Shown here: piece by piece, positions 1 to 27,210 of the stretch | How the letters are laid out: every line of letters starts with the position of its first letter | Numbering within the stretch: the first letter of the stretch is position 1 | The notes under the pieces: model-generated | Told to the model about the DNA's origin: nothing | The model's input: the letters and a program-made list of their open reading frames with translations, nothing else | Databases searched by the model: none | Translations under genes and position numbers: made by a program | Assembly: GCF_024227715.1 (NCBI RefSeq) | Contig: NZ_CP100448.1 | Location: 3,059,655-3,123,654, forward strand | Length of the DNA stretch: 64,000 nucleotides | Direction of reading: 5' to 3' | Source of the DNA: Halomarina litorea | GTDB taxonomy: Archaea > Halobacteriota > Halobacteria > Halobacteriales > Haloarculaceae

Positions 1-535
1 TGATTCGGCCGTCGAGCGCACCGGGCGCGACGTCGAGTTCGAGGCGCGACTCGCGACTGACGAGGCGGGCGGTCGTCTCGCGCATGTCGCTCGACGCCTC
101 GTGGACGCTCTCGCCGGGTATCGCCCCCGTCCGGGCGTACGGGAGCAGGTCGCGCTTGCCGACCATCACCAGGCCGTCCACGTCGGCCCCGTTCCGGACG
201 AGCGCCTGCACCTCGCTGACGAACTGCTTCAACTGCTGTTTGACGGGCGTGACCGCCATCACGCGCTCGCCCGCACCGTCCGCGACGGCCTGCAGGCCGG
301 CGACGAGGGCGATGAGCGTCTTGCCCGTCCCGCAGGCCCCCTCCAGCATGAGGTAGCCGCCGTCGGACATCGTGTCGAGGGCGCGTTCGACCCCGTCGGC
401 CTGCTGGGGGTACGGGTCGAACGGGAACAGGTCGGCCCACGCCGCGTCGATGGACTCGCGAGGGACCGTCCGCCCGTCGGCACCGCTCCCGTCCTCAGCC
501 TCGCGCTCCGGGACCGGCGAGTCGCTGTCGCTCAT
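1..535 (-). CDS. ATP-dependent DNA helicase, XPD/DinG type (N-terminal part, cut by window edge)
   Basis: Only the first 178 residues are present; the gene runs off the left edge. Residues 66-73 (GACGTGKT) form a Walker A P-loop preceded by the PYPQQ motif (residues 41-45) typical of the Q-like region of superfamily 2 Rad3/XPD helicases, and TPVKQQLKQF near residue 95 fits motif Ia. The ATG at 535 is supported by a GGAGGTG ribosome-binding site 7 nt upstream and a TATA-like box further up. The family unwinds DNA 5'-3' using ATP. The iron-sulfur domain and motif II lie outside the window, so the subfamily cannot be fixed. The acidic N-terminus is typical of haloarchaea. Confidence 0.85.
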   Translation of the reverse strand, partial: MSDSDSPVPEREAEDGSGADGRTVPRESIDAAWADLFPFDPYPQQADGVERALDTMSDGGYLMLEGACGTGKTLIALVAGLQAVADGAGERVMAVTPVKQQLKQFVSEVQALVRNGADVDGLVMVGKRDLLPYARTGAIPGESVHEASSDMRETTARLVSRESRLELDVAPGALDGRI

Positions 536-17743: not shown

Positions 17744-18610
17744 TCAGGCCGTCTCGAGTTCGCGTTCGAGCGCGCGGAGTCGCTCGACGCGCTTCTCGGT
17801 GGTGGGGTGGGTGCTGAACAGCCGTCCGATGAACCCGCTGCGGATGGGGATGATGAAGAACGCGTTCATCTCCGACTGCTCGCGCAGGTCCTCTTTTGGG
17901 ACGCTGTCCATCGTGCCGTCGATCTTGAGGAGCGCACTGGCGAGCGCGCTCGGTTTCCCGGTGATGACGGCCCCGCCACGGTCGGCGGCGAACTCGCGGT
18001 AGCGTGAGAGCGTCCGGATGAGGACGAACGAGACGATCCAGACGGCCAGCGACGCGACGATGGCGACGATGACGCCACCGTTGTTCCGATCGCGGCCCCC
18101 ACCGAAGAACGCACCCCAGCGGACGATCATGAACGCGATGGTCGAGAGGAACGACGCGACGGTCATGACCGCCACGTCGCGGTTCTTGATGTGCGCGAGT
18201 TCGTGAGCCATGACGCCCTCCAGTTCCTCCTGGTTCAGCGTGCGCATGATGCCCGTCGTCACGCAGACGGCGGACTTCTTCTGGGAGCGACCCGTCGCGA
18301 AGGCGTTGGGGACGCGGCTGTCGGCCACGGTCACCTTCGGTTTGGGGAGGTCGGCCTGCTGGCTCAGTCGCGAGACCATCGCGTGGAGTTCGGGGTACTC
18401 CTCCTCGCTCACCTCGCGGGCCCCCATCGAGTAGAGCGCGAGTCTGTCGCTGAAGAAGAACTGCGCGACGAGGAACGGCACCATCAACACGAGATAGCCG
18501 ACGAGATTCGTCTGCGCTATCACCACCACGAAGACCAGGTAGAGGGCGAACAACAGGAACATCGTGAGCGCCATGCGCCCACGCAGTCCCCAGTCCGGTT
18601 TCCACTGCAT
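17744..18610 (-). CDS. htpX: Zinc metalloprotease HtpX-like
   Basis: A 288-residue membrane protease of family M48. Two N-terminal membrane segments (about 13-33 and 38-54) precede the zinc motif HELAH at residues 136-140; a further pair of hydrophobic segments follows, then EFAADRGGA near residue 219 supplies the third zinc ligand. HtpX degrades misfolded membrane proteins. I chose the ATG giving QWKPDWGLRGRM rather than a TTG three codons upstream. The gene stands alone between DUF5813 and the dpp cluster. Confidence 0.9.
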   Translation of the reverse strand: MQWKPDWGLRGRMALTMFLLFALYLVFVVVIAQTNLVGYLVLMVPFLVAQFFFSDRLALYSMGAREVSEEEYPELHAMVSRLSQQADLPKPKVTVADSRVPNAFATGRSQKKSAVCVTTGIMRTLNQEELEGVMAHELAHIKNRDVAVMTVASFLSTIAFMIVRWGAFFGGGRDRNNGGVIVAIVASLAVWIVSFVLIRTLSRYREFAADRGGAVITGKPSALASALLKIDGTMDSVPKEDLREQSEMNAFFIIPIRSGFIGRLFSTHPTTEKRVERLRALERELETA

Positions 18611-18733
18611 GGACCCCAATACGGCGTCGAGCGGTTAAACGTCACCGTCCTGTCCGTCACTTCCTCGCACGAGGACACGCGGCAACCGGCCCGACTCGCC
18701 CGAGGCTCGCTGCCGCGACGGCGGGTCCCTCCG

Positions 18734-20047
18734 CTAGTCGTCCGCGAGGGACCTGACCGACGCGGTCTGTTCGCCGTGGAGGTGACAGGCCGCGGGGTGG
18801 CCCGCCCCCGTCGCCTCCAGTTCGGGGTGGTCCTCCTCGCAGACCGTCGGGAACGCCTCGCGGAGTCGCTCGGCGGCCGTCTTCAGGTCGCCCTCGGCGA
18901 CGCGATCGAGGGCGTCCGAGAGGACCGCCTCGGCCTCCGGGTCCGACAGCGACTCGGGGAGGTCGAACTCGCGGCGAATCTCGCGCCGGAGCGCCGCCGC
19001 GTCCACCTCGCTCGCCGAGTCGTAGTCGCCCTCCTCGACGAGGAACGCGCGCACGGTGTCCACGTCGAGGTCGTCGGTCTGGACGCGGTGTCTGAGGTTC
19101 ATCACGTGTCGCCACTCAGATTGCTCGAAGTCGTACCCCTCGGGGGGGATGACTTCGGGACAGCGAGTGTGGAACCGGCACCCGGAGGGCGGGTTCGACG
19201 GACTCGGGACGGTCCCGGTCAGTTCGATGGCCTGCCCGCGCTTGCGGGGGTCCGCCGAGGGAATCGAGGACATCAGCGCCCGTGTGTAGGGGTGCTGGGG
19301 GTTCCCGAACAGTTCCTCGGTCGGGCCGATCTCGACGATCTCCCCGAGATACATCACCGCGACGCGGTCGCAGATCTCCCGCACCACGCCCATGTCGTGG
19401 CTGATGAGCAGGATAGCCAGCCCGAACTCCGCCTGCAGGTCGTTGATGAGTTCGAGGATGGCCGCCTGCACGCTCACGTCCAGCGCCGAGACGGGTTCGT
19501 CCGCCACGATGAGGTCCGGGTTGAGGACGAGCGCCCGGGCGAGACCGATGCGCTGTTTCTGTCCGCCCGAGAACTCGTGTGGGTAGCGGTCGTAGTCGTC
19601 CGCCGAGAGACCGACGCGTTCGAGGAGGTTCTCGACGATACGACGGCGGCGTTTGCGGTCGCGCATCCCGTGGATCTGGAGCGGTTCGGCGACGGAGTCG
19701 CCGATGCTCATCCGCGGGTCGAAACTCGACGTGGGGTCCTGGAAGACCATCTGGGCGCGCCGGCGGAAGGCCTTCAACTCCGTCCTGTCGAAGTCGGTGA
19801 TGTCCTCGCCGTCGAACAGGATTTCGCCGGCGGTCGGCTCCTCGACGCGCAACAGGGAGGTGGCGGCCGTGGACTTCCCACAGCCGGACTCCCCGACGAT
19901 GCCGACCGTCTCGCCGGGGTGCACGTCGAAGTCGATGCCGTCGACGGCGCGCACGCGACCGACCTCTCGCTGGAGGACACCCTGCGTGATGGGGTAGTGT
20001 TTGGTGAGGCCGCGGACCGACAGCAGCGGTCGGTTCGCGTCACTCAT
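18734..20047 (-). CDS. dppF: Peptide ABC transporter ATP-binding protein, DppF/OppF type
   Basis: A 437-residue ABC ATPase, last gene of a five-gene importer. Walker A is GESGCGKST, the signature is SGGQKQR, Walker B is [12 protein letters not shown], and the H-loop is LLISHD. The oligopeptide-transporter C-terminal cysteines are present (CRFHTRCP and GHPAACH), but about 95 extra mainly helical residues separate them, making the protein longer than the usual ~330. The start overlaps the end of dppD by 8 nt, so translation is coupled. With DppD it powers peptide import. Confidence 0.9.
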
Positions 20048-21110
20048 CGCGGCCACCCCCGTCGGTGCGGGCGGCCCCCGACTCCGACTCGGAGTCGCCC
20101 CTGCCGTCCGTCCGGCGGACCACGGACTCGTCGTAGCCCGCGCGGTAGTAGACACACGAGACGTCGTGGTCGTCCGCGACCGTCTCGTGGGCGGGTTGCT
20201 CGCCCGTCCGGCAGTCCTCGACGGCGTGGGGACACCGCGGGTTGAACCGACAGCCGTCGGGCGGGTCTGTGAGGTCCGGCAGACTGCCCTGGATGGCGTT
20301 CATCATACCACCGGTGCCGGGGAGACAGTCGAGCAGGCCCTGCGTGTAGGGGTGGGCGGGGTCCTCGAAGACGTCGAAGACGCCGCCGCGTTCCATCACC
20401 TTGCCCGCGTACATGACGACGACGCGGTCGGCGATCTCGGCGACGACGCCGAGGTCGTGGGTGACGAAGACGATGCTCATGTCGTACTCCGCCTGCAGGT
20501 CGTTTAGCAGGCGCAGTATCTGGGCCTGGATGGTCACGTCCAGCGCCGTCGTCGGCTCGTCGGCGATGAGCAGGTCCGGGTCCGAGGCGAGCGCCATCGC
20601 GATGACGACGCGCTGTTTCATCCCCCCGGAGAACTCGTGGGGGTAGTCGTCGACCCGGGCGGCCGCGTCGGGGATGCCGACGCGGTCCAGCAGGTCGACG
20701 GAACGGGCGCGGGCCTCGGCCTTCGAGACGTCCCGGTGGAGTCTGATGGCCTCGATTATCTGCGTCCCGACGGTGTAGACGGGGTTGAGCGCCCCCTGCG
20801 GGTTCTGGAAGACGTGGGCGATGCGGTCGCCCCGCACCGAGCGCAGTTCCTTCTCGGAGAACTCCGCGAGGTTCATCCCGTCGAACAGCACCTCGCCGCC
20901 GGCGATACGGCCCGGCGGCATGGGAATCAACTGGGTGATGGACTCGCAGGTGACCGTCTTGCCCGACCCCGACTCGCCGACGACGCAGACCGTCTCGCCG
21001 CGTTCGACGTCGAAGCTGACGCCGTCGACGGCGCGGACGACCCCCTCGTCGGTGTCGAAGTGGACGTGCAGGTCGCGGACCGAGAGCAACGGTTCGCTCG
21101 AACCGCTCAT
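20040..21110 (-). CDS. dppD: Peptide ABC transporter ATP-binding protein, DppD/OppD type
   Basis: A 356-residue ABC ATPase. Walker A is GESGSGKT, the signature SGGMKQR, Walker [13 protein letters not shown], and the H-loop FVTHDLG. After the ATPase domain comes the oligopeptide domain with [10 protein letters not shown] and further cysteines, which in this family may hold an iron-sulfur cluster. It overlaps the upstream permease gene by 4 nt (ATGA). It partners DppF in ATP-driven peptide uptake. Confidence 0.9.
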
Positions 21111-22297
21111 GTCTCACCCTCCGAGCGCGGGTCGAGTGCGTCCCTGAGCGCGTCACCCACGAAGTTGAACGACAGGACGGTGAAGAACAGGAAGATTCCC
21201 GGTATCGTCGCGATCCACCACGCCGCCGAGAGGTCGTCCTTCCCGCCGGTGATGGTCCGGCCCCACGACGGGATGCTCGGGTCGGTCAGTCCGAGGAAGG
21301 CGAACGCCGCCTCCACGAGGATGAACGACGGGATGAGCAGGGTCGCGGCAGTGATGACGGTACTCGACACGTTCGGCAGGAGATGGCGACGGATTATCCA
21401 TCCGTCGCTCGCGCCGGCGTTCTCCGCCGCGCGGATGTACTCCTCCTCGCTGCGCTGGAGCGCCTCCGAGCGAACCAGTCTGCCGACCCCCTCCCACCCG
21501 AAGAAGCCGAACAACACGATGAGGAGGAAGAGACTCGGCGTGAACAGGTACGCGAGGATGAGGAACAGGAAGAACGCGGGGAAGGTGGCCTGGATGTCCA
21601 CGTAGCGCATCAGCAGTTCGTCGACCCAGCCGCCGAAGTAGGCGGCCGTCGTGCCGACCAGACTGCCGACGGTGATGACGATGAACATCGTGATGAGACC
21701 GACCTGCATGCTCACGCGCATCCCGAGGATGATGAGCTTCAGGATGCCCTGTCCCTCGCTGGTCGTCCCCAGCGGGTACTCCCACGACCCGTAACAGCGC
21801 CCGCTGGCGATCTCCCCGACGCAGTCGAGGGGGACGTCCATCGAGACGGACGTGTAGACCGGGGGCTGGTACTGGGCGATGATGTTCAGTTCGGGGTTCC
21901 CGGCGATGGCCGGGCCGAACGTCCCGACGACGAAGATGACGGCGAGGTAGACGGAACTGAGCACCGCGACCCGGTTGCGCCGGAACCGCCGCCAGTAGTA
22001 CTTCGTCAGTCGCGGGTTGTCGTACAGCGGCAGGACCACGAAGTAGAACCCGACGACGAGCGTCAGCATCGACAGCCAGTCGACGGCGCTGACGTCGTAG
22101 CCGCCGAACACCGTCCCCACGCCGGGGAGGACGAGTGCCGGTATCGTCGTGAACTGGTTGGCGATGACGACGTAGTCGTAGACGGCGAGGCCGGCGAGAC
22201 CCAGCAGGGTCCCGAGGAAGGCGAGTTCGCGTCGGGAGACGCCGGCGCCGCCGATGGCGTCCCAGTCGACGTCCTCGAAGCGGTCTTCGGTCGCCAT
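21107..22297 (-). CDS. dppC: Peptide ABC transporter permease, DppC/OppC type
   Basis: A 396-residue inner-membrane permease. The C-terminal half has the binding-protein-dependent transport motif EYIRAAENAGASDGWIIRRH (EAA loop) that contacts the ATPases. The N-terminal region is longer than usual, with extra membrane segments before the standard TM1, and a loop with two cysteines (DCVGEIASGRC) that would lie outside the membrane. It overlaps dppB by one base and dppD by four. Confidence 0.88.
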   Translation of the reverse strand: MATEDRFEDVDWDAIGGAGVSRRELAFLGTLLGLAGLAVYDYVVIANQFTTIPALVLPGVGTVFGGYDVSAVDWLSMLTLVVGFYFVVLPLYDNPRLTKYYWRRFRRNRVAVLSSVYLAVIFVVGTFGPAIAGNPELNIIAQYQPPVYTSVSMDVPLDCVGEIASGRCYGSWEYPLGTTSEGQGILKLIILGMRVSMQVGLITMFIVITVGSLVGTTAAYFGGWVDELLMRYVDIQATFPAFFLFLILAYLFTPSLFLLIVLFGFFGWEGVGRLVRSEALQRSEEEYIRAAENAGASDGWIIRRHLLPNVSSTVITAATLLIPSFILVEAAFAFLGLTDPSIPSWGRTITGGKDDLSAAWWIATIPGIFLFFTVLSFNFVGDALRDALDPRSEGET

Positions 22298-23283
22298 TAT
22301 CGCCCCTCGTAGTCGATTCTCGGGTCGAGCACGGTGTAGGCGATGTCCTGCAGGAGGTTGCCGATGATGACGAGGAACACTGGGATGAGCGTCGTCGCCA
22401 GCACGAGCGGCGTGTCCTGCTGGATGATGGCCTTGTAGCTCAACTGCCCGAGGCCGGGGATCTGGAAGACCACCTCGGTGATGTACGCCCCCGCGAACAG
22501 CACCGCGAGGATGTCACCGATGAGGATGGTCATCAACGGGACCAGCGCCGGGCGAAAGATGTGTCTCAACAGCACCCGCCAGTCGCTCGCGCCCTTCGCG
22601 CGAGCGGTCTTGACGAACTCCGCGTGGACGTACTCCAGCGCCTCGGCGCGCGAGTAGCGCATGTTCGCCGCCATCGCCGCCGTCGACAGGACGACGACGG
22701 GCATGACGAGTTGCTTCGCGTTCGCCACCGAGAACACCCCGTGGTCCAGTATCGCCTGCGTCTGGAAGAACGTGGGCAACCACCCCAGCGTCACCCCGAA
22801 TATCAGTATCAGCATGATGCCGAACCAGAAGTTCGGGATGCTGATGCCGAAGAAGGCGACGAACGTCCCGAAGTAGTCCGTCTTGGTGTACTGGTGGGTC
22901 GCGGAGTACAACCCGATGCCGTACCCCAGTATCAGCGAGATGACCGTCGCCGGTAAGAAGTACATCAACGAGTAGGGGTACGCCTCCGCGATGGCGTCCA
23001 TCACCGGCTGGTTCCGGGTGAACGACCACCCCCAGTTGAGCGTCGCCATGTTCACCATGTAGTCCTGATAGCGCTCCAGCACCGGCTTGTCACGTCCGGT
23101 GATCTTCTTGAACGTCTCCTGTGCTTCCTCGACGTCACCGCCCGACGTCGCCGCGGAGAACGCGAACGCCGTCTGCCCGTTGCCGGGGGAGACCGCGAGC
23201 AGGCCGAACGTTATCGACAGGATGAGATACGTGGCTAGCACTGCCCACGCGACCCGTCGGGCGACGTACCATCGCATGCTCAT
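22297..23283 (-). CDS. dppB: Peptide ABC transporter permease, DppB/OppB type
   Basis: A 328-residue permease with about six membrane segments; MRWYVARRVAWAVLATYLIL opens the first. EYVHAEFVKTARAKGASDWR is the EAA cytoplasmic loop, and FQIPGLGQLSYKAIIQQD is the conserved last loop of the family. An ATG two codons further in is an equally possible start. It sits 15 nt after the binding-protein gene. Confidence 0.9.
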   Translation of the reverse strand: MSMRWYVARRVAWAVLATYLILSITFGLLAVSPGNGQTAFAFSAATSGGDVEEAQETFKKITGRDKPVLERYQDYMVNMATLNWGWSFTRNQPVMDAIAEAYPYSLMYFLPATVISLILGYGIGLYSATHQYTKTDYFGTFVAFFGISIPNFWFGIMLILIFGVTLGWLPTFFQTQAILDHGVFSVANAKQLVMPVVVLSTAAMAANMRYSRAEALEYVHAEFVKTARAKGASDWRVLLRHIFRPALVPLMTILIGDILAVLFAGAYITEVVFQIPGLGQLSYKAIIQQDTPLVLATTLIPVFLVIIGNLLQDIAYTVLDPRIDYEGR

Positions 23284-23298
23284 GTGTGTGCCCCCGGA

Positions 23299-25203
23299 TT
23301 ACTCGAAGCTGTAGCCGTCGGGGAGTGCGTCCGCGAGCATGTTCTGGGCGAGCGCCGTCCCGTACGTCTCGCCGTAGCCGAAGCGCGTCACCTTGTCGTC
23401 GCTGAACCAGGCCGAGTACTCGGGCTGGTGGGTGAAGCCGGGTTCGGCGTAGCCGCGGTTGATCTGCTCGACGATGACCTGCTTGTTGACGCCCGTCGTG
23501 AGCGCCTGCCGGACCTTCTGCTCGCGCAGCGGTTCCCAGCCGTTGGCGCGCTGGTTGTAGACGAGCATGCCACAGAACGCGCTTGGCACCTTGATGACCT
23601 TCGTGCTCTCGTTGTTCTCGTACTCCGTCGCCTTCGCCGGCGGGAGCGCCGTCTGGGTGATCTCGCCGGTCTTGAACGCCGACAGGCGGGTGGACTCCTC
23701 GCTGAACACCTGGTAGGAACGCTGGTTGAAGTACGGGACGTTGCCCTCGAAGAGACCGTTCTTGCCGTAGTAGCTGTCGTTACGCGAGGCGACGAAGACG
23801 GACTCGCGGTCCCAGCGGTCGAACTTGTAGGGGCCGAGGTTGCCGCTGGCGTACGCGAGCGTCTGGACCTCCTGGTCCTGGTTGAGCCCCTCGCCGTCGT
23901 CGTCGCCGCGGTACTTCTCGACGAGGCCTTTGGGCATACAGTAGGTCCCCCACATGACGGGCTTCTTGATGAACGCCGGGTCGACCTCCTCCAATTGAAT
24001 CTCGAAGCTCAGGTTGCCGGTCTTCTGGACGGCGATGGGCTTCTCGTTGCGGAACCACTCGCTCTGGTTGACGTCGCCCGCCCAGTTGTTCTCCGCCTGA
24101 TGGACCTCCTTGATGTAGTACACCCAGTCGTCGGCGGTCATCTGGCCGTAGTCCGCGCCCCACTGCAGGTCGTCGCGGAGGAAGAACTCGTAGTTCTGCT
24201 TGTCGGAGGTGTCGTACTCCTGGACCCACCGCGGCGTGAACTCGTCGTCGTTGTTCAGCGCGTAGGCCCCGTCCATCGTCAGGCCGATGCGGGCGTCCGT
24301 GGAGGTGTCGTTGTTCCGGATGGGGTTGAGTGTCTTCGCGTCGGTGGCCGACCCCGTAGAGAAGCTACCCTGCACCGAGGGGTTGGAGCCGCTACCGCCG
24401 GTGAAGTGCCAGCGCTGGGAGTCGAAGCCGAACGTCGGCCCGACGTTGAGGCCGCCGACGTTCTGCTGGAACCCCTCGAGGTCCGTACTGAACGTGAGGA
24501 AGTTCACGGGCTGGTCGCGCGAGAGGATACCGAAGACGTTCGAGAGGAGGTCCTGACGCGCCGCCTCGTCCGTCTCGGAGGACGCCTGGTCGAGTTTCGG
24601 GCCGATGGGTTCGGTCGGTTTGTAACCGTAGAAGTTGACCGTCGCCTGCGTGGTCTGGGAGACGTCCGTCCAGAACGGCGCGATAGACGTCGGCGTCCGG
24701 GGGTAGGAGTTGAACCCGATGCCGCCCATCAGGTCCCACTGCTCTTGGCTGACCGCCTCGTCACGGGGGCCGGCGTTGAACGTCGGCTGGCCGCCCTCGT
24801 AGGTCTGCTGGGCATACTTCGAGAGCATCGTGTTGAACGGCACGCCGGTCAGTTCGACGTTGATGCCCACCTTGCCGAGTTCCTGTTTGATGAGTTGCAT
24901 CGTCGTCTCGGTGGTACTCCCGCCCGTGGAGTACACCGCCGACAGCGTCACCTGGTTGCCGTCGGGGTCCATCAGCTTGCTCCCGAGCATCTCGACTTCC
25001 GTCGTCTGCTCCCCGCCGTCCGACCCGTTCCCAGCCGTCGTCCCGTTGGAACCGCCGTCGCCGTCACCGTCGGCGGACTGCTGGCTGCACCCTGCGAGCG
25101 CCACGGCACCGCCCGCGCCGAGGAGTTTGAGCACACTGCGGCGCCTCGAGCCGACGTTCGTTCGACCGCCCTCACGACCAGTGGGTTCGTTACCAGATGG
25201 CAT
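23299..25203 (-). CDS. Peptide ABC transporter substrate-binding lipoprotein, apparently circularly permuted
   Basis: A 634-residue exported lipoprotein: SRRRSVLKLLGAGG with lipobox LAGC (Cys39) is a Tat-lipoprotein signal, followed by a Gly/Asp/Ser linker. It is a family-5 peptide-binding protein, but the order is unusual. Residues ~75-265 (DPDGNQVTLSAVYSTGG, QELGKVGINVELTGVPF) resemble the C-terminal lobe, while the usual N-terminal TLNPI motif comes only at residue 291 and the usual mid-protein segment ALTTGVNKQVIVEQINRGY is at 567-585. The C-terminus ADALPDGYSFE would join naturally to residues 72 onward, as expected of a circular permutation. It leads the dpp operon from its own strong promoter. 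Confidence 0.85.
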   Translation of the reverse strand: MPSGNEPTGREGGRTNVGSRRRSVLKLLGAGGAVALAGCSQQSADGDGDGGSNGTTAGNGSDGGEQTTEVEMLGSKLMDPDGNQVTLSAVYSTGGSTTETTMQLIKQELGKVGINVELTGVPFNTMLSKYAQQTYEGGQPTFNAGPRDEAVSQEQWDLMGGIGFNSYPRTPTSIAPFWTDVSQTTQATVNFYGYKPTEPIGPKLDQASSETDEAARQDLLSNVFGILSRDQPVNFLTFSTDLEGFQQNVGGLNVGPTFGFDSQRWHFTGGSGSNPSVQGSFSTGSATDAKTLNPIRNNDTSTDARIGLTMDGAYALNNDDEFTPRWVQEYDTSDKQNYEFFLRDDLQWGADYGQMTADDWVYYIKEVHQAENNWAGDVNQSEWFRNEKPIAVQKTGNLSFEIQLEEVDPAFIKKPVMWGTYCMPKGLVEKYRGDDDGEGLNQDQEVQTLAYASGNLGPYKFDRWDRESVFVASRNDSYYGKNGLFEGNVPYFNQRSYQVFSEESTRLSAFKTGEITQTALPPAKATEYENNESTKVIKVPSAFCGMLVYNQRANGWEPLREQKVRQALTTGVNKQVIVEQINRGYAEPGFTHQPEYSAWFSDDKVTRFGYGETYGTALAQNMLADALPDGYSFE

Positions 25204-25223
25204 TGTAGTCAAAATTTGATTGG

Positions 25224-25235
25224 ACAATATATACC
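25224..25235 (-). promoter_or_regulatory. TATA box of the dpp operon
   Basis: On the minus strand GGTATATATTGT lies about 27 nt before the ATG of the binding-protein gene, so the transcript should be nearly leaderless. The surrounding 60 bases are strikingly AT-rich for this genome, which suggests a strong promoter and upstream factor site. Confidence 0.7.
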
Positions 25236-25370
25236 CTTCGATTGATAAAAATTGTATTTTGTCATGAACCCGGAGAATCGTGTAGGTCGGGACTTTCGTT
25301 GGACATTTGCCCACAGAACCTCTCGCGACGGGACCGTTCGGCTGCAAGGACCGGTGGAACCGGGTGTTCC

Positions 25371-26984
25371 TCAGTAGCCGACGGCGTTGCCGTCCTTTCG
25401 GGGTTCGGTGGCCGCCGAGAGGACGCCGTCGGCGTTGCGCGCGAACTGCGCCCCGCCGAACATGACGGGCGGGAGGACGGCCACGTCGTGGCCCTTCCGG
25501 GCGAGGGCGTTCTGTATCGCCCCGGGGACGCGCGTCTCGACGGCCAGACGGCCCGACTCCCGGTACCGCCAGCGCGGTTCGTCGAGCGCCGCCTGCGGCG
25601 TCATCCCCTCGTCGACGAGGTTCGAGACCACCTGCACGTGCCCCTGTGGCTGCATGAACCCACCCATCACGCCGAAGGCCGCCCAGTCGTCGGCGTCGAA
25701 GCGGATGAGCCCCGGGATGAGCGTGTGGAACGGGCGCTTTCGGGGTTCGAGGCGGTTCGGGTGGTCGGCGTCGAGCGAGAACGACGCCCCCCGGTTCTGG
25801 AGGGCGATGCCGGTGTCGCCGGCGACGAGGCCCGACCCGAACCCGGCGAACCGGGAGTTGATGTACGAGACGACGTTGCCCGCGTCGTCGGCGACACAGA
25901 GCAGGACCGTGTCGGCGTCCTCGGCGTGCGAGTCGGGTACCCCGAAGGAGTGGTCGCCGGCCCCCTCGCCGACTTCCTTTGCCCGCCGCCTCGCCCACTC
26001 GCGGGAGGCCAGCGGCGGCACGTCCTTGAACTCGGGGTCCGTGATGTAGCGGTGGCCGTCGTGGAAGGCGAGGGCCGTCGCCTCCGCGAAGCGGTGGAGT
26101 CGCTCGGCCCCCTCGTGGCTCGCGGCGTCGAGTTCGCTCGCGATGTTCAGCGCTTCGAGTGCGACGAGACCCTGGTTGTTCGGCGGGAGTTCGAACACCT
26201 CCGCGCCGTTGTAGGTGGTCGAGATGGGGTCGACGAACTCCGGTTCGAAGTCCGCGAGGTCCTCCATCGAGAGGAACCCGCCCTCGCGCTGGACTTCCTC
26301 GACGATGGCCTCCCCGATGCGGCCCTCGTACACCACGTCAGCGCCCTCTTCCGCGATGGCGCGCATCGACTCGCCGAGTCGCTCCAGTCGCATCACCTCG
26401 CCCGCCGCCGGCGCGCGTTCGCCGTCGACGAGGTAGGCGTCCCGGGCGTGGTCAGACTCGAAGAGGTCCTCCCCGCCCATCCAGTGGCTGGCGATGACCT
26501 CGCTGACGGGGTAGCCCTCGGTGGCGTACCCGATGGCGGGGTCGAGCGCCTCGGCCAGCGTCCGCTCCCCGAAGCGGTCGACGGTCGCCTCCCACCCTCG
26601 GGCGGTTCCCGGGACGGTGACGGTGTGCGGCCCCGTGAAGGGCATCTCCGCCTCGTCGGGAGCCACCTCCTCCTCCTCGGCGACGGCCTCGCGGACCCGT
26701 TCGCGCGTGGCGGCGGCGGGCGCACCCCCCCAGGCGCGCATCCCGCCCACCTCGCCGTCCGCGGTTCGGTAGAGCGCGAAGACGTCGCCGCCGAGTCCGG
26801 TCGAGGTGGGTTCGACCACGTTCAGGGCGGCGGCCGTCGCCACCGCCGCGTCGAAGGCGTTGCCGCCCTCCTCCAGCACCCGCAGACCCGCCTGCGCCGC
26901 CAGCGGCTGGCTCGTCGCCACCACCCCGTTGCTCGCGTACACCGTCGACCGGCGCGACCCGAAGCTGTCTACGTTCGTGTCCAT
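25371..26984 (-). CDS. Gamma-glutamyltransferase family protein (YwrD-like)
   Basis: A 537-residue Ntn hydrolase of the gamma-glutamyltransferase family. The autocleavage nucleophile is Thr359 in DADTVLLCVADDAGNVVSYINS, giving a large subunit of about 358 and a small one of about 179 residues; GLGGDVFAL and EGGNAFDAAVA near the N-terminus are also conserved. It lacks a signal peptide, unlike secreted bacterial GGT, so it should act in the cytoplasm, as YwrD-like members do. It cleaves gamma-glutamyl amides. It sits directly upstream of, and on the same strand as, the peptide importer, which has its own promoter. Confidence 0.85.
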   Translation of the reverse strand: MDTNVDSFGSRRSTVYASNGVVATSQPLAAQAGLRVLEEGGNAFDAAVATAAALNVVEPTSTGLGGDVFALYRTADGEVGGMRAWGGAPAAATRERVREAVAEEEEVAPDEAEMPFTGPHTVTVPGTARGWEATVDRFGERTLAEALDPAIGYATEGYPVSEVIASHWMGGEDLFESDHARDAYLVDGERAPAAGEVMRLERLGESMRAIAEEGADVVYEGRIGEAIVEEVQREGGFLSMEDLADFEPEFVDPISTTYNGAEVFELPPNNQGLVALEALNIASELDAASHEGAERLHRFAEATALAFHDGHRYITDPEFKDVPPLASREWARRRAKEVGEGAGDHSFGVPDSHAEDADTVLLCVADDAGNVVSYINSRFAGFGSGLVAGDTGIALQNRGASFSLDADHPNRLEPRKRPFHTLIPGLIRFDADDWAAFGVMGGFMQPQGHVQVVSNLVDEGMTPQAALDEPRWRYRESGRLAVETRVPGAIQNALARKGHDVAVLPPVMFGGAQFARNADGVLSAATEPRKDGNAVGY

Positions 26985-27210
26985 GCGAGAGGCAGGGTAC
27001 CGACTCCCATAGTCTCCCTCGTTCCGGCGGCGGCGAGCAGTTTCACTTTCACTCCCGTGTTGGCGGACGCGTGGGGGTGGATTCGCCGTCAAGGCAACGT
27101 GAGGGGGCCGCAGACGAACGAATCGTCCTCGGTGGCCGGGGTCGAAAATCCGCCCGCCGTCGGGCACTTTCGCGGTTCCGTCCAGTTTCACCCCGCCCGT
27201 GAAATCCATC

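Follow-up and report, generated by a model that had tools for sequence, protein, structure and literature searches.

Gene content of the locus

The window analysed here, a 64,000-nucleotide stretch of the Halomarina litorea genome, carries a minus-strand gene cluster in the order GGT (gamma-glutamyltranspeptidase), SBP (substrate-binding protein), DppB, DppC, DppD and DppF, in which the SBP, two permeases and two ATPases with oligo_HPY make up a Dpp/Opp operon (Table 1). The SBP coding frame covers positions 23302-25203 of the minus strand, with its stop codon at 23299-23301, and translates into 634 aa. Long open frames were also observed on the antisense (plus) strand, at 18191-20245 over an ATPase gene and at 23284-25245 over the SBP gene, and these probably just reflect the high GC content.

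Table 1. Features of the permuted SBP gene and its neighbours (window coordinates)
Feature	Position	Strand	Basis or remark
Circularly permuted SBP_bac_5 substrate-binding lipoprotein, whole gene	23299..25203	-	634 aa
Tat signal peptide, twin arginine and lipobox ALAGC (Cys39); ancestral, kept N-terminally	25087..25203	-	Sequence; comparison with canonical proteins
Gly/Ser/Asp-rich flexible linker after Cys39, mostly pLDDT < 50	24991..25086	-	Sequence; model
Former C-terminal half, residues 72-270, now leading the chain	24394..24990	-	SBP_bac_5 profile 289-363; canonical C half
Fusion linker TGGSGSNP (residues 268-275), old C-terminus to old N-terminus	24379..24402	-	
Former N-terminal half, residues 276-634, now closing the chain	23302..24378	-	SBP_bac_5 profile 2-276
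Permease, DppB/OppB-like, next operon gene	22297..23283	-	Tree gives matching separate origins
Permease, DppC/OppC-like	21107..22297	-	
ATPase, DppD/OppD-like	20040..21110	-	
ATPase, DppF/OppF-like	18734..20155	-	
Gamma-glutamyltranspeptidase (GGT), upstream neighbour	25371..27209	-	

The SBP_bac_5 profile (PF00496) matched the window protein at 145 bits (gathering cut-off 32.4), in two stretches of swapped order. By sequence the protein is a Tat lipoprotein (SRRRSVLK...ALAGC39), for which lipidation is predicted, and its Gly/Ser/Asp-rich linker now runs into the former C-terminal half. Its elements depart from the standard SBP_bac_5 order by a cyclic shift relative to the canonical relative L011, and the protein is a permuted variant of the SBP_bac_5 (cluster C) family. 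We infer that it is the peptide-binding lipoprotein of a Dpp/Opp-type importer and still a working Venus flytrap; that its substrate is a peptide or a gamma-glutamyl peptide is a guess from gene context. SBPs of either order lie next to a GGT gene (permuted in L080 and L081, canonical in L084 and L026), so the permutation does not track this neighbour.

A congeneric genome, G001, carries the same cluster with a canonical SBP at the same chromosomal site (L084, G001:C7:231000-243000). In the comparison of the window region 18734-25203 with this genome, the GGT was 85% identical and most flanking genes 65-88%, whereas the SBP, DppB, DppC and DppD were just 49-62% identical, suggesting that the transporter part was exchanged or diverged fast.

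Swapped order of the two halves

The sequence-only reading had placed a C-lobe sequence early in the chain and the motif TLNPI late, and had given ALPDGYSFE as the C-terminus. The translation bears this out, as DPDGNQVTLSAVYSTGG starts at residue 79, TLNPI lies at 291 and ALPDGYSFE ends the 634-aa product, where it corresponds to the turn of a two-strand hairpin. When the halves were aligned to SBP_bac_5, profile positions 2-276 corresponded to residues 322-626 and positions 289-363 to the preceding residues ~86-180, which argues against a chance resemblance. A PDB search returned Bacillus subtilis AppA (1xoc), with chain residues 185-340, 349-402 and 437-508 matching window residues 456-624, 74-127 and 186-258, i.e. 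in swapped order, the pieces for window 74-127 and 186-258 being weak individually.

The nearest haloarchaeal canonical relatives matched both halves at ~40-50% identity in reversed order (C half, E-value ~1e-40; N half, ~1e-110). That the ends fit together, as had been proposed, was upheld by BLASTP, in which the two matches met on canonical relatives without loss. The window gene matched canonical L085 at 52%/50% identity with a 9-residue overlap between the matches; L067 matched L028 at 77%/71%, the first match ending at 561 and the second starting at 560; L019 matched L100 at 68%/65%, with end and restart both at 389; and L048 and L053 showed a gap of 0 on L100. Both halves are thus homologous to one canonical gene, swapped and with ends that meet, as expected of a natural permutant.

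Distribution of permuted genes among haloarchaea

A search of 145 related genomes yielded three full-length homologues in the swapped order of the window protein (61, 56 and 44% identical) and a fourth, L019 (34% identical), which is likewise permuted, together with many canonical relatives, whose counterpart of residues ~260-630 precedes that of ~70-270. A survey of ~391 haloarchaeal genomes with a permuted-order profile, followed by two group profiles, identified permuted genes in 42 of the genomes sampled, and genes of this kind are widespread in haloarchaea. Of the 42, 9 belong to group I (that of the window gene), 15 to group II (including a divergent branch, L068-L076), one to group III (L067) and 17 to group IV. 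A comparison set of 44 permuted and 44 canonical genes, with the loci of the first search included, was used.

The first three groups have their chain cut at a hairpin turn, which in canonical proteins reads approximately Y-x-Y/F-D-G followed by x-L-V-x-P-D-G. Group IV is cut ~30 residues earlier, its proteins ending in ...QPRWSQFYPSTDE and beginning, after the linker, with FPKFGVDDLYG... Linker length after the lipobox revealed no simple difference between permuted and canonical order. Close permuted pairs displayed dN/dS values of 0.03-0.32, similar to the 0.10-0.25 of canonical pairs, a value of 0.61 for L001-L007 being set aside as unreliable at so distant a divergence; the low values in close pairs point to purifying selection and indicate that permuted proteins are kept for a function.

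Permuted genes without a detected neighbouring permease, within the ~5-8 kb inspected, were L063, L064, L065, L066 and L057 (group IV) and L078 (group II). Not every permuted SBP therefore need serve an adjoining transporter, and these may be orphan binding proteins for distant permeases or for signalling.

A scan of a genome-contig collection returned bacterial genes with partial matches only, all inside the N half, and plasmid searches returned canonical relatives only and no permuted member; since the phylum-wide search used a strict E-value, permuted forms outside haloarchaea may exist.

Three individual loci showed irregularities. The group IV gene L055 (G293) is an open frame without a recognisable signal peptide or lipobox, possibly a frameshifted or decaying copy; one in-frame stop codon (L030:2671-2673, G088) splits a canonical SBP gene; and L085 (G330), a close canonical relative, encodes a Tat signal peptide without the lipobox Cys (GVAGVGSVGAQD), so that its product is perhaps released rather than tethered.

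Number of independent origins

In the main tree (62 rows, LG+C20), for which both halves were restored to canonical order, four order changes were obtained, all forced by well-supported branches; the number was four throughout 200 bootstraps and was unchanged after removal of two long rows. Placing groups I and II in a single clade was rejected (p-AU 0.0016), as was a single clade of groups III and IV (p-AU 0.00015), the groups in these tests having been named after tree inspection. At least four order changes were forced in each of the N-half and C-half trees alone. The tree of the DppB permease, from which the divergent group II branch had dropped out, displayed four order changes, three of them forced, with each group keeping its canonical neighbourhood.

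A single ancient permutation followed by several returns to canonical order would account for the hairpin cut site common to groups I, II and III. It is unlikely, however, because each permuted group has canonical relatives nested close to it (L067 and L028 being 77/71% identical), four changes are needed in the bootstraps, the AU tests reject both joint clades and the DppB tree agrees with separate origins. Moreover, group IV is cut at another site, every reversion would amount to another full permutation, and the canonical sisters show ordinary termini. That the permutation arose about four times, the first three groups sharing one cut site and group IV having another, is well supported; at least three separate origins is the cautious reading and four the best reading.

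Predicted fold of the permuted protein

Using an alignment of permuted proteins and canonical half-sequences as input, AlphaFold2 modelled the window protein as one confident fold, disordered at residues 3-61, at pLDDT 88.8 and pTM 0.86, compared with pLDDT 92.3 and pTM 0.87 for canonical L011. The order of helices and strands in the two models describes the same circle opened elsewhere, and L011 strands 373-375 and 378-380 appear equivalent to window residues 632-633 and 77-78, which flank both new ends. Tandem or standard-order domains would have spoken against a permutation, yet the predicted topology, compared with that of L011, was that of a single permuted fold.

In Foldseek, the alignments of which depend on chain order, the permuted model aligned over ~375 columns with a target TM of ~0.5, its top matches being SBP_5 structures, while the canonical L011 control aligned over ~580 columns with TM up to 0.87. 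Element order and Foldseek together suggest a predicted three-domain bilobal SBP fold, as in the canonical protein. A domain-swapped dimer, or halves that fold independently, would be conceivable in that domain-swapped SBPs exist in this family (AliC, PDB 8qlh), but the single-chain pTM of 0.86, the uniformly high confidence beyond the N-terminal linker and the short fusion linker make such an arrangement very improbable for the window protein.

Formation of the permuted gene

The permuted protein had been proposed to carry a new lipobox linker. This did not hold, as the N-terminal signal of the window protein, MPSGNEPTGREGG...RRSVLKLLGAGGAVALAGC, resembles that of canonical L011, MPSGNEESD...RRNMLKMLGIGGAAALAGC. 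Since signal peptides are alike in permuted and canonical proteins (MPSGNEP... in the window protein, MPSGNEE... in L011), the original start was retained, and the old signal is consequently now joined to the other half. In L067 the stretch at the junction (GGADESAGLPEDIEEPPAV) resembles the acidic linker that follows the lipobox in L028. A retained signal peptide and an old linker at the L067 junction fit a tandem duplication followed by fusion and loss of the outer halves.

In each such event the SBP gene would have been tandemly duplicated. The first copy would then have lost its N half, so that its C half came to follow directly on the original signal peptide and linker, and this C half would have been fused to the N half of the second copy, with removal of the second signal; a new stop would have closed the permuted chain. 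A tandem-duplicate intermediate was not found among the loci examined, and the route is deduced from its products. The most likely origin of the gene is tandem duplication plus deletion, with fold and transport role kept.

A chimera, in which a foreign C half became fused to an N half from an unrelated half gene, was considered for TpMglB-2 of Treponema pallidum by its authors, the permuted part of that protein matching EcMglB at only 13% (PMC4990184). For the haloarchaeal genes this is a highly improbable origin, as the N-half and C-half trees put each permuted group beside largely the same canonical relatives and the identity to one canonical gene is similar for both halves. An artefact, by mis-assembly or by reading two adjoining gene fragments as one, would suit the frame of L055 with no recognisable signal peptide but deserves practically no credence, given a single open frame at 44 loci in many assemblies, including one-contig genomes (G165, G278, G408), intact copies in many near-complete assemblies, signal peptides, and dN/dS values of 0.03-0.32.

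The proposal of a circular permutation is thus supported by homology in swapped order with ends that meet without loss, a confident single fold that is cyclically shifted, and 44 permuted genes in independent assemblies. The permutation is real, maintained by selection and recurrent.

Consequences for tether, hinge and permease docking

Canonical SBPs of the OppA/DppA type have their two termini in lobe I. With the original termini in lobe I and the cut in lobe II, the chain should still cross between the lobes twice; the hinge, which the sequence-only reading expected to be reordered, was probably not rebuilt, as judged from the order of elements and the domain limits of OppA/DppA. With the cut in lobe II, the linker that bears the lipid would be expected to lead into that lobe, and on the same grounds the lipid tether would have moved there from lobe I.

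A changed orientation toward the permease is possible. In Escherichia coli DppABCDF, scoop helices of DppB touch both DppA lobes (PMC12136057). The TpMglB-2 authors suggested that tethering might account for the unusual topology of that protein (PMC4990184). Tethering alone does not explain the haloarchaeal permutations, because most canonical relatives are tethered too. A bolder reading, rather less likely than not, is that permutation recurs, at least four times, because it is useful, a tether on the other lobe altering permease docking or movement; if true, haloarchaeal peptide-binding lipoproteins would form a natural hotspot at which permutation is selected.

Discussion

The permuted proteins share family, fold elements, the B/C/D/F operon and the Tat lipoprotein signal with canonical SBPs (DppA, OppA and AppA, and haloarchaeal L085, L011, L028 and L100), their nearest canonical relatives being 50-77% identical in both halves. 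They differ from these in the order of the halves, in where the termini and the lipid tether sit, and in the fusion of the old termini by a short linker. It is very probable, taking the explanation as a whole, that the gene encodes a working cluster C importer lipoprotein with a circularly permuted chain and a tether moved to lobe II, and that such permutations arose about four times, each via a tandem duplicate.

The one natural precedent found for a permuted SBP in the open-access literature searched, TpMglB-2 (Tp0684), belongs to another cluster. It is a naturally permuted, lipid-tethered ABC binding protein that retained flytrap function and was described as a 'type Ic / cluster Bc' ligand-binding protein, a single topology class (PMC4990184). 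Natural permutation, lipid tether and ABC binding role are common to TpMglB-2 and the window protein, but TpMglB-2 has a type I / cluster B sugar-binding fold, its permuted part is barely similar in sequence, and its cut inside lobe N added a fourth hinge crossing, compared with the two crossings expected here. The window protein falls outside the 'cluster Bc' class, having matched SBP_bac_5 and cluster C structures instead. Engineered permutants and permuted binding-protein halves, e.g. of ribose-binding protein, indicate that the fold tolerates permutation; these are laboratory constructs, neither natural, recurrent nor cluster C (PMC9815098). No earlier report of permutation in cluster C SBPs or in archaea was found in the open-access literature searched, and within that literature permutation is apparently undescribed for cluster C binding proteins.

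Permuted SBPs are broken up or only half recovered by profile searches (Pfam, NCBIfam) and by structure searches that depend on chain order. Circular permutation is, to our knowledge, rare in nature, and rarer still is its repeated origin within one family that has close unpermuted sisters. With about four events, two cut sites, comparable permeases and close unpermuted sisters that are up to 77% identical, the haloarchaeal genes represent a replicated natural experiment on binding-protein folding, tethering and docking, and their recurrent permutation is a natural test of how much rewiring a working protein tolerates.
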